From Hyperoplus lanceolatus (taxonomy: Eukaryota; Chordata; Actinopteri; Uranoscopiformes; Ammodytidae): a stretch of 64,000 nt of DNA. Each line of letters starts with the position of its first letter. Positions within the stretch are counted from its first letter, which is position 1. The DNA is taken from positions 9,112,001 to 9,176,000 of the forward strand of contig CM049402.1 of assembly GCA_026929865.2 (NCBI GenBank). Direction: 5' to 3'. The notes under the pieces are model-generated. The model did not search any database, had not been told where the DNA came from, and saw only the letters and a program-made list of their open reading frames with translations. The position numbers and the translations under genes were made by a program. Below, piece by piece: positions 27,721-32,800 of this stretch.

Positions 27721-27726
27721 ATGGAA
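27721..27726 (+). CDS. Deaminase gene, coding part of first coding exon
   Basis: The exon would be the 14-nt microexon 27713-27726: acceptor tcctgtccacag before it, donor gtaagt after ATG GAA. It ends in phase 0, which is what the next exon needs. The small size makes this the weakest part of the model; an alternative upstream coding start is possible. Confidence 0.4.
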
Positions 27727-30700
27727 GTAAGTGGATACTCTACTCTTTATATTAAAAATGTCTGAACCAAACATCATTTTATCAAAATGTATACTGATGA
27801 CTATTGCTTGGAGTTACTAAAATACTGTATTACACTAAGATTGATGTCTTTTCACAGTGATGTGTTATTTGTTAACCAGCTTCCTTAGACATCTTCTGAA
27901 AACTCATTTAGACCCAGTTTTATATATTCACTTTGTAATAGATAGTCAAATTTTTCCCTCTCACTAAGCCGGACAGACGCAGACAACAAGCTCCAGAAGA
28001 GATGTATTCAGCCCCCTTACACAAAAGGTATACTCTATGAAGTGAAATGCTGTATTGACTCAGCCTAGTTATGTCTTATGTCCAGTGTTCCTATGAAAAT
28101 TAGCATTATTTTTTTTGATAAGCCATGCAGGGATCAATTATGGTGTTCTTTAGTCTATGGTGTTGATCTAGGCCAGACGGGATTTCACCCGCAAAAAAAA
28201 CATGCAAGCTGATCTACTGACGTTTGCTCACTGAGGATTGCGCGTCAGATAACATGCGCTTTCCATTTAGTACGTTTGCCTTAATAAATATGCAAAATCA
28301 GACGTTTCTTCCCGAGTGCGCAAAATATGGGAGGAGTAAACGCTATAAGGTAGCCTTCATGCATAACTATGTAGTATTTACTAAAAAAAATCAAACTAAA
28401 ATAAACCTATGTATTAGGTAATGCATTACTACATTAGTATTTACTAAAAAAAATTAGAAATATGTAGTTGACTAAAGAAAAAAAACTTTTTTAGAGGTTA
28501 ATGCATAACTATGTAGTTACAAAAATATAATTAAATCAAACTATGTAATGCATATGTAGTAGTTACTACAATTTTGTGTAACTTATTATAAAGTGTTACC
28601 GCTAAAAGTTTTTTTAGCACAAGCACTGTGATTTACAAAGCCTGAAAATATTTGCGGTTGTTGTGATTGCGTCTTTATTTAATATTTTGAAAAGTTAAAC
28701 TGTTAAACACAGACGGCTCGGCTTGTGAGTAGGAAACATAAAAAACAACGGATAAAGTTTTTTTTGGGTTGTTTAATGTTTGGATTGACATAAACAAAAA
28801 TAATCCAGACATATCACCTTTCCAGCAATGCAATTTTGGAGCTTTTGGATGAGGAGCTTATTTGAGCGACTAACAATAAAGAGTTGCTCCAAAAAGGCAT
28901 TTCCTTTGCCGTGCCAAAAGGCATTTCCTCTTGTATGGGTCGTTCCAGCGCCGTACGCACTAGCACTAGCCCCTTTTACACAGAGATTGCGGCATATTGA
29001 CGGAACAACAGCACGCCAATATGCCGGCTTTGCTTGCTTCTGTGTTATTTACACAGAACCAAGCAAAGCCGGCCTGGCGCATCAGTGTGCCATTTTACAC
29101 AGCGTCCGGAATGAAAGAGGTGCTCCGGTGTGACGTAAACATTTAGCGTCGCGCCAGTCAGCTGCTTTACAACAACAACACTGGCCCGGTGAATTGAGAG
29201 CAGAAGTGCTGGAGCTTGCAGTAAGAGGGCCGTATGTTACTGTCCCCGTAGTCTCGCAAAGCCAGACCAAACTACAGCAAGTAGTATGGTCTGGAAGCAC
29301 TCCGTTTAGAGCCGTCTATTCGGGGGGGAAACTGGGCTGGCCTGTTTTTATTTCTTTAAACCAATCACAATTATCTACGGCGGGGCTAACCCCGGGAAGC
29401 AGCCAATGGAGGCATAGCGTTGTTTGCCGACGCCAGCGCTTAATAGACGCTGGCAGAAGTGGTCAAGCCAGACTACTGTCCCCGTGATGTGCCAGTTGAT
29501 CTCCCTACGCACTGAGTCCAACATCTCTGGGACTGTTAACCAAACTGACAAAATCACTCCGCTCACTGCTTCACCTGTCTGTCTGTGTGTGTGTGTGTGT
29601 GTGTGTGTGTGTGTGTGTGTGTGTGTGTGTGTGTGTGTGTGTGTGTGTGTGTGTGTGTGTGTGTGTGTGTGTGTGTGTGTGTGTGTGTGTGTGTGTGTGT
29701 GTGTGTGTGTATTTGTGTGACAGGTTGGCTGTGAGCAAGTCTCTTTGACCCTGTTTCCACCTGGCATTAATATGTGGTTTTTAGGATCCGATCGCGCTAA
29801 CTACAGGTGGAAACACGCTTGAAATTATCCACATTCGGAGGTGGTTTGAGACCACTTATCCACATACCCATTAACAGTGGAAACGCGTATGCGCATCTCA
29901 TACACATTAGGCCCCGCCCACTCAACTGCGGCGAGTGACTGGGCGGAAACGCGTACTCATTCACGCGACAATTCACGTCATAAAAGCGCACCGTTGCAGG
30001 TAAACAGACAACAGAAAACAGAAAACATTGAAGATGGAGTGTATAAGCGGAAATGATGTACGAGCTGATTTCCATACAGCGCGGGGAATTCGAATCCGGA
30101 TCGCAAACGCGCATAGAAGACGCACAGTTAAGGCCAGGTGTGAACAAGCATATTACATTTACATATAACGATCGGATTCCTCAGAACCACATATTAATGC
30201 CAGGTGGAAACAGGGTCTTTGAGGGCAGCACTCTGCCATTCAGACATACACATACACACAGCGTGTGAAGTCATGTTACTGTAGACAGAAATAAAGTGTG
30301 GATATATACGCTCAGACTTAGGATAACAATAGCGGCGGCGATCCGGTCGCAGTCTAGCCTAGTCTAGCTTTCCCACTTCATTGTACAACTGCCCCCGGGC
30401 AGAAATACACTCATAAACTCTGGGAAATGAAGCATGGGGGTTTGGATTGAGCAGCGGACCTTATTACCAGCTAAATTATACGCCGTTCCTTTTATTTGGT
30501 GATTTTTACGGGACATCAGGCCGCCGTGGTTAATGTTAAACACACGTCCTTCAACTGCTAACATGGTCGCATGTTTAGAACGTAGGCTATGGAACGTCAA
30601 ACCCGCCCCTGTTCCGCAACAACAAGCAGACACATTTATACAGAGAGGCGGAACAGATTGTGTCGGCAATCTTACTACCCCCCGAGGTAGTAAAATTCCC

Positions 30701-32800
30701 GGAACAATCTGTTGCGCCTCTCGGCCCCCGTTCCGCAACGGTCGCATTTATACAGCAGGGCGGAGGGCCGAAATTCCGGCATATTCCCGGCTTTCACTGG
30801 CTGTGTAAAAGGGGCTACTGTTTATTTAAAAAAAAAAAAAAAAATGGGATGGGATGGGATGGGATGTACTTATTTTGCAAATCAAAAACATTCAAATCTT
30901 TTTATGAACAAAGTCTTGGCTGCTTGAAAAAAAAAGTAAAAAAAAAAAAAAATTAAGGGCCCCCATTGGCCAGGGCCCTGGACATGTGCCCACTTTACAT
31001 ATGCGGTAATCCGTCATTGCTCTCAGTACCTACCCATTAACTAACCATTCCTTCCTCATTCCTTCCTCAGTAACAACTCACTTGTTGTCTACGTTATTGT
31101 AAAGTGTTGCCAATATTCTTTCTTTTGTTCTTCTTCTAATGTCCTGCCATATTCTCTTAATTTTCACCAGTCCTTGTTTTACACACAGCATTTATTTTCT
31201 CACATATTCTCCCCCATATTGCGTATATTATCTTTGAGTAATATGAATATATATTGGCTGTTGCTCAACAGTGCTTGTGTTTTCCTCTTCTAGTAACACC
31301 TCTAATTCAATGGCATTACATCTCTCTTAGCGCTTGCTGTCACTCTGCTCTCCGTCCAAACACGGAAACCATTAACAAGCCAAACCCTCATTTTGATCTC
31401 CTTCCTCTAACATGTTTGCCCCATTGTCATTTGTGCAGTTACTCTTTATTGATCACACGCAAAACGCCCACAAACCAAGTGTTTAGATTGGATCTTAGTA
31501 GATCTACCCCTGTGTGTGCTTTTTTTCATAAATCAGATGTTAGCACACTTTGCTAGCTACAGTGGGCCTATGTTTGCAAACCCCTGTGTTTATTTTCTGT
31601 GAATTCAACTAAATTCAACCTTTTTCATTATGCAGTGAAGAGAATGAGAAGCAGGAGAATTTTCACTGGGACCAAGAAATCGATCCATCTTTTCCTCAGG
31701 ATTTTGAATATGATGAAGATCAACATTTATATGAGCTTAAACCTCAAATATGTCATGAAATTTATGAATTCTCTAAAAATCCGGCAAAATATGAACAAGC
31801 ACTATTTGATCTTTTTTTGACATATACCAGAAATCAAGGTTTACGTGCCACACCAACAACATCCAACAATTTAGATATATCCCTATACTATGAAGAAGTA
31901 CGTAGCCACATTGAAAACCACAAAAAAAAACCCCAGCCTAACGCAAAAAAAATCCGGAGCACAATAAAATCAGTGCCGGATTTACAAAAGGAACCAATTA
32001 TTAAGTCAGTATACGCAGGTGCACTAATGCAGCGCATCTTGAAATGTAACGAGAAAGAAGGAAAGAAAAAACAATTTGGGTTTTATGTTGTTTTTTTTAA
32101 AGATGGTGGAGTCAAGATCTCTGTTGCAGCTGATCCAGATCCAGATACAGAAAAGCACAGCGAGGAAATAATACTTAAAGAATTGAATACATTTATTCGG
32201 AAAAATGAAAGGGAAGTTTCACAAATATTAATTTATTCCTACAACTCCCCCTGTTTCACAAGAAAAGAAAAGGTTGAACCTTGTATGTTACAACTATTTT
32301 TGGCAGCCTATATTTGGTACTATCATTATAGAATTGTGACTGTCGTGTCATTTACAAAGTTTTGGGGAACATATGGGTCAAACTACTTTGATTTTGTCAA
32401 GTTTTTTCACTTAACATTACCCAGCAACTCTTTCTACAAATTCAAGATCTCCTTAGAATTGCACACTAGAGCTTTCAAACCTTGGGCGGGAGAAAGTGAC
32501 ACACATATTCATCTTAAGAATCTGATTGAAGCATCATCTGGTCAACGTATAAGTCTAACTGAATATTTAAAACATCTAAAGAAAAAAATTCTAGAGGAAC
32601 ATAAAGATCATGAATCCTCAAACACGTTCAATAAACTTCGCGATAGTTTAATGTCAGAAGTTCGAGAACAACTACAACAGGATTTTAACTTTTCAGAGGT
32701 TCAACTTTTTTTTAAAGATCTACCTTTCAAAAACGACTTTATACACTTTTATCATATTGCTGAGGGAAGGCCGAATCCCAATTCCTCTTTAGCCTCTTAG
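27721..32800 (+). CDS. Putative zinc-dependent nucleic-acid deaminase, 409 residues, three coding exons
   Basis: Model: exon 27721-27726 (ATG GAA, donor gtaagt), exon 27969-28027 and exon 31636-32800, with intron phases that fit exactly (0, then 2). The N-terminal third is charged and acidic with no signal peptide. The core has the cytidine/adenosine deaminase fold signature: H-S-E at predicted residues 196-198 (zinc His and catalytic Glu, followed by a helix) and S-P-C-x9-C at 228-238 (zinc cysteines) after a strand ILIYSYN. A hydrophobic helix and strand IVTVVSFTKFWG follow. The C-terminus is helical. Spacing resembles AID/APOBEC-like and bacterial-toxin-derived deaminases rather than ADAR or CDA. 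AATAAA occurs at 32870-32875. Surrounding transposons are broken whereas this frame is intact for 388 codons, which suggests constraint. The target (DNA, RNA or nucleotide) is unknown. Confidence 0.68.
27969..28027 (+). CDS. Deaminase gene, second coding exon
   Basis: The acceptor is ttccctctcactaag and the donor is gtatac at 28028. It encodes 19 codons (begins PDRRRQQAPEEM, ends PLHK) plus two bases, AG, that complete a Ser codon with the T at 31636. Confidence 0.5.
29249..29475. repeat. Repeat element inserted in the 28967-30817 transposon
   Basis: It starts with tagtctcgcaaagccagacc (29249), and a 31-bp stretch here (29249-29279) is identical to 49811-49841 elsewhere in the window, which shows that it is a dispersed repeat. 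It ends near ggtcaagccagactac (about 29460-29475). Boundaries are approximate and no reading frame is credible. Confidence 0.55.
29584..29710. repeat. (GT)n microsatellite
   Basis: An uninterrupted GT tract of about 127 bp within the nested transposon. Confidence 0.97.
29749..30215. mobile_element. MITE with 31-bp perfect TIRs and 7-bp target duplication
   Basis: The outer 31 bases at 29749-29779 (beginning ccctgtttccacctggcatt) and 30185-30215 are exact reverse complements. The 7-bp direct repeat tctttga flanks it at 29742-29748 and 30216-30222. The length of 467 bp, clean TIRs and target duplication make it a recent insertion. A 7-8-bp duplication points to hAT- or P-type transposition, but the family is not established. 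Confidence 0.88.
31636..32800 (+). CDS. Deaminase gene, large last coding exon with catalytic domain
   Basis: Acceptor cctttttcattatgcag ends at 31635. The frame starting GAA at 31637 is open for 387 codons to TAG at 32798-32800. It begins SEENEKQENFHWDQEID (the first residue is the split Ser) and holds the H-S-E and P-C-x9-C motifs described for the gene. A polyadenylation signal follows 70 bp after the stop. Confidence 0.8.

Follow-up and report, generated by a model that had tools for sequence, protein, structure and literature searches.

Known SNAD deaminases and the locus under study

SNAD enzymes have been proposed as immune mutators of cold-blooded vertebrates. Two sources confine SNAD2 and SNAD3 to ray-finned fish, describe SNADs as carrying signal peptides (present in 26 of 38 SNAD1), and state that the activity and biochemistry of SNADs are unknown (PMC11004436, PMC8201067). 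A third source concerns the expression of SNAD1; its SNAD3-like strings belong to gene names (snad_318, for example), and SNAD3 as a word of its own does not occur (PMC13402138). No SNAD3 enzymology was found in the open-licence literature. The canonical signature of AID/APOBEC deaminases is given as HxE-x25-30-PC-x2-4-C (PMC11004436).

Here we describe a SNAD3 (PF18749) gene of Hyperoplus lanceolatus that is encoded on the plus strand of a stretch of 64,000 nucleotides of contig CM049402.1 (C8:9112001-9176000 in the coordinates of its own genome; hereafter the window). Our results confirm a real, intact, zinc-deaminase-type gene of fish and partly support the overall interpretation given in a preliminary description of the same DNA.

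Family assignment and closest relatives

The window protein matches PF18749 (SNAD3) in hmmscan with an E value of 4.2e-17 and 62.8 bits (cut-off 27), with its best stretch at profile positions 104-199 of 379. Matches to other deaminase families remain below their cut-offs, namely APOBEC_N (PF08210; 20.1 vs 25 bits) and, over the same core, NAD1 (PF18778; 18.7 vs 27 bits) and SNAD1 (PF18744; 14.3 vs 25 bits). The preliminary description had called the gene apparently uncharacterised, but the protein falls into an existing family.

Protein searches found five proteins from groupers (Epinephelus) and one further protein (P0007), all listed with PF18749; together with the window protein and a homolog on C20 of the same genome, they form the comparison set of eight sequences. 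The five grouper proteins represent four annotated loci in three species, and these unnamed products of LOC126388927 (X2 and X3, isoforms of one locus), LOC125894154, LOC125894156, and LOC117260659 score best among the named relatives. They reach 71.1-96.8 bits against PF18749, and one of them (P0004) spans profile positions 26-372. The window protein aligns with them through its C-terminus and shares with them the catalytic motif, a C-terminal DFN block, and an N-terminus of the MEPD type, which reads MEPDSSRQQ at the start of three of the five (P0002, P0005, P0006) and MEPDSSSQQ at an internal position of P0003; the start of P0004 lies later. By contrast, the grouper proteins are longer (457-550 residues), carry extra N-terminal sequence, and are only 26-28% identical to the window protein overall; the range is 26-31% when P0007 is included. 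P0002 and P0006 of Epinephelus moara, although named as isoforms of LOC126388927, are only 67% identical, as if the annotation had merged tandem copies. No relative was confirmed in phage records, viral contigs (125 pattern matches), or prokaryote genomes (109 pattern matches).

A second, canonical SNAD3 gene in this fish

A protein search of the 806.7-Mb genome, in which four candidates were scored, yielded two matches at E ≤ 0.001, the window gene and C20:4630657-4630932. The latter lies in a frame (C20:4630045-4631292, minus strand) that is open over 415 codons and encodes a canonical SNAD3, with 397.6 bits to PF18749 over profile positions 24-379 of 379. The scores of the window protein and the grouper proteins are far below this value. 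In local alignments, the window protein scores 260-282 with the five grouper proteins, 265 with P0007, and 140 with the C20 protein, which itself scores 192-219 with the groupers. These scores, which stand in place of a tree and can be misled by unequal rates, place the window gene nearer to proteins of the grouper type than to canonical SNAD3. The preliminary description had suggested a distinct family; this is only partly right, because PF18749 had already been described, whereas the far lower scores to its profile do set the window protein and the groupers apart from canonical SNAD3.

Both proteins of this fish have a core above the PF18749 cut-off, an HxE motif followed by SPC and a late Cys, and an alignable helical C-terminal region. 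They differ in that the C20 protein has Cys residues at both x4 and x9, whereas the window protein has a single late Cys (x9). The first exon of the C20 gene was not found in the 7 kb scanned, which also hold other hydrophobic ATG frames. An ATG frame resembling a signal peptide, located 1.4 kb upstream, was rejected as this exon because the frame surrounding it looks, by eye, like a LINE reverse transcriptase.

In the 184 kb around the window gene, tblastn (E ≤ 0.05) detected a single decayed fragment and no further intact copy; on the one genome search described above, the gene is apparently single in its genome. The fragment (17282-17169, minus strand) matches P0007 with 32.3 bits (E values of 9e-4 and 0.003 when the window and the 184 kb, respectively, are searched), a score reached by none of 60 shuffled windows; its profile E value is only 0.02. 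A second candidate for a part of a lost copy (19071-18967, minus strand) was too weak to be counted (E values of 0.11-0.65; profile E value of 0.21).

Gene structure

The frame that contains exon 3 (31613-32800) is free of stops over 395 codons, with the exon beginning at 31636 and the stop codon at 32798-32800. In first-order Markov sequences of 64 kb each (30 per composition), the longest stop-free run is 183 codons with the composition of this frame and 218 codons with that of the window, which upholds the earlier claim of a long open last exon. The two upstream exons proposed with it also stand: joining 27721-27726, 27969-28027, and 31636-32800 gives GT/AG borders, exact phase, and a product of 409 residues. 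Its N-terminus (MEPDRRRQQAP) is identical to that of P0002 (MEPDSSRQQIP) in 8 of 11 residues, counted from the Met; when the P0002 N-terminus was shuffled 20000 times, 12 of the shuffles reached the alignment score. Exon 1 encodes ME, the start of the MEPD motif, and we regard the match as homology support for both upstream exons. The acceptor-like stretch immediately ahead of exon 1 suggests that a further exon of the 5' untranslated region (UTR) probably lies upstream. Behind the stop codon, two AATAAA motifs are present where 0.16 per 150 bases are expected.

Exon 3 encodes an acidic N-terminal region, the deaminase core (model residues of about 150-265), and a helical C-terminal region. 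The latter had been taken as a sign of distinctness, which is overstated, since it also aligns with the same region of the groupers, canonical SNAD3, and P0007.

Catalytic signature and predicted fold

The zinc-ligand triad recognized in the preliminary description is borne out by the comparison set, in which H196, E198, C228, and C238 of the 409-residue model occupy invariant columns. The signature of the window protein is HxE-x28-PC-x9-C, with no Cys nearer to the PC. HxE-x28-PC is present in all seven proteins scanned for it (the window protein, the five groupers, and P0007), with the aligned second Cys at x9 in six of them and at x13 in P0007; the C20 protein has PC-x9-C as well. A nearer Cys also occurs in each of the seven proteins other than the window protein (at x8 in the groupers, x11 in P0007, and x4 in the C20 protein), and because a Cys at x4 fits the classic spacing, the zinc ligand of the C20 protein is ambiguous. 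The late second Cys is thus common to these proteins, and the spacing earlier regarded as a mark of a distinct family is not confined to the window gene. C238 opens the helix predicted to follow the loop (residues 216-231 in P0001 numbering).

Structure prediction, which had also been proposed, yields a core with the alpha-beta topology of AID/APOBEC deaminases around the zinc site. The best matches of the predicted structure among solved structures are AID/APOBEC proteins (APOBEC3H and others); chains of the JAB/MPN fold and others appear among the Foldseek results as well, most of them with low probability and one of them in the second row. Of two sequence searches against solved structures, one gave no match and the other gave E values of 0.15 and 0.59, taken as chance. 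The resemblance to AID/APOBEC lies in the predicted core topology and the zinc signature, whereas PC-x9-C departs from PCx2-4C, long extensions are present at both termini, and the protein belongs to AID/APOBEC neither by PF08210 nor by the canonical motif.

N-terminus and place in the cell

The window protein differs from the family as described at its N-terminus, which is hydrophilic and of the MEPD type. No signal peptide was seen in a hydropathy scan of the first 60 residues, in which the most hydrophobic 9-residue stretch averages -0.46 on the Kyte-Doolittle scale; the same residues contain 17 Asp/Glu and 6 Lys/Arg. This agrees with the earlier observation of an acidic N-terminus lacking a signal peptide. 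In the same scan, the five grouper proteins range from -0.58 to 1.13 (highest in P0003, at residue 29), and none has a leader-like start as judged by hydropathy. Because signal peptides are not universal even in SNAD1 and none was seen here, the window gene is assigned by sequence family and not as a secreted protein; the hydrophilic, acidic N-terminus makes an intracellular location the better reading despite the family name.

Function and alternative explanations

With its open frame, homology-backed exons, family assignment, catalytic signature, predicted deaminase core, and hydrophilic N-terminus, the window gene is probably functional and represents a divergent, apparently non-secreted member of a known family. 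We consider it moderately likely that this apparently single PF18749 gene, nearer to the groupers than to canonical SNAD3, encodes a cytosolic or nuclear zinc-dependent deaminase. By analogy with the family, H196, C228, and C238 would hold one zinc ion and a water molecule, and E198 would shuttle the proton in the attack on C4 of cytosine in single-stranded DNA or RNA, yielding uracil. The acidic N-terminus and the C-terminal helices may serve regulation or targeting, and the role could be to edit the nucleic acid of viruses or retroelements inside the cell.

Three other explanations were weighed. SNADs are described as signal-peptide proteins (PMC11004436, PMC8201067), and the acceptor-like stretch ahead of exon 1 leaves the 5' end incompletely defined. 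The true 5' end might hence lie in a different exon that encodes a signal peptide, in which case the protein might act extracellularly or be taken up by infected cells; this is unlikely, given that the MEPD start is matched by annotated grouper proteins without a leader-like start. It is also unlikely that the stretched PC loop has broken the active site and left a nucleic-acid-binding or decoy paralog, a fate like that of APOBEC2 and APOBEC4. PC-x9-C does lie outside the classic spacing (PMC11004436), and the activity of SNADs is given as unknown (PMC11004436, PMC8201067), but a loss of catalysis should not preserve the H, the E, and both Cys in all aligned sequences. A decayed relative upstream and transposon-rich surroundings would suit a recently dead or dying copy whose frame has yet to decay. 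This is highly improbable, because 387 open codons at such low identity to the nearest relatives found point to long maintenance of frame and motif, and no damage is apparent in the splice sites or the poly(A) signals.

More speculatively, and with a fairly low probability, this fish and the groupers might share a separate, MEPD-type intracellular branch of SNAD3 in which secretion gave way to a regulatory, acidic N-terminus; the branch would retain a stretched PC-x9-C zinc site and act as a fish counterpart of APOBEC3 in editing viral or transposon nucleic acid in the cell. Because the gene is compact and intact, its zinc signature is clean, no secretion signal was seen, and the genome also holds a canonical SNAD3 as comparator, two questions become testable: whether SNAD3 deaminates at all, and whether one branch is intracellular like mammalian APOBEC3.

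Features of the locus and its neighbourhood

Table 1. Coordinates in the window of the SNAD3 gene and associated features.
Feature	Position	Strand	Remarks
Decayed SNAD3-like fragment	17169..17282	-	H-S-E stretch, in-frame stop; about 10 kb before exon 1
Exon 1	27713..27726	+	Coding ATGGAA 27721-27726, donor GTAAGT; splice sites by eye
Presumed 5' UTR in exon 1	27713-27720	+	Acceptor-like stretch ends at 27712 (by eye)
Exon 2	27969..28027	+	59 nt; GT/AG, exact phase; codes PDRRRQQAPEEMYSAPLHK plus 2 bases of next codon
Intron 2	28028..31635	+	Contains 1.86-kb inverted-repeat element and (GT)n run
Exon 3	31636..32800	+	Last base of split codon, 387 codons, stop; open reading frame, Pfam SNAD3 (E 4.2e-17), homologs
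H196-S-E198	32156..32164	+	Predicted zinc ligand and proton-shuttle Glu; H and E columns invariant in 8 aligned sequences
C228 of S-P-C	32252..32254	+	Predicted zinc ligand; invariant in 8 aligned sequences
C238	32282..32284	+	Second Cys of PC-x9-C; invariant in 8 aligned sequences; first residue of predicted helix after loop
Two AATAAA polyadenylation-signal candidates	32870..32886	+	70 and 81 bases past stop

The inverted-repeat element in intron 2 (28964-30820) has terminal inverted repeats of 20 bp (28964-28983 and 30801-30820) and encloses another inverted-repeat element (29704-30260) as well as a GT microsatellite. The earlier statement that all transposon frames are broken holds for one of the two elements checked: a Tc1-type frame (22250-23077, plus strand) is split by a stop, whereas a LINE endonuclease frame (1401-2624) runs for 407 codons without interruption, so that "all" is too strong. 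A second Tc1-type transposase remnant is located at 35079-35336 (minus strand). Immediately before the LINE endonuclease frame, an open frame (2628-3632, minus strand) has a near-threshold match to a GDSL lipase (30.6 vs 32.9 bits) and could be that LINE's first frame.

Two minus-strand genes downstream provide useful synteny anchors. One, matching PF03134 at 43224-43379, belongs to the REEP family; the other is KDM3B (52287-52682 vs 4c8d, E value of 1e-39). Outside these matches, their exons (41854-46259 and 52284-62335, respectively) were placed by eye.
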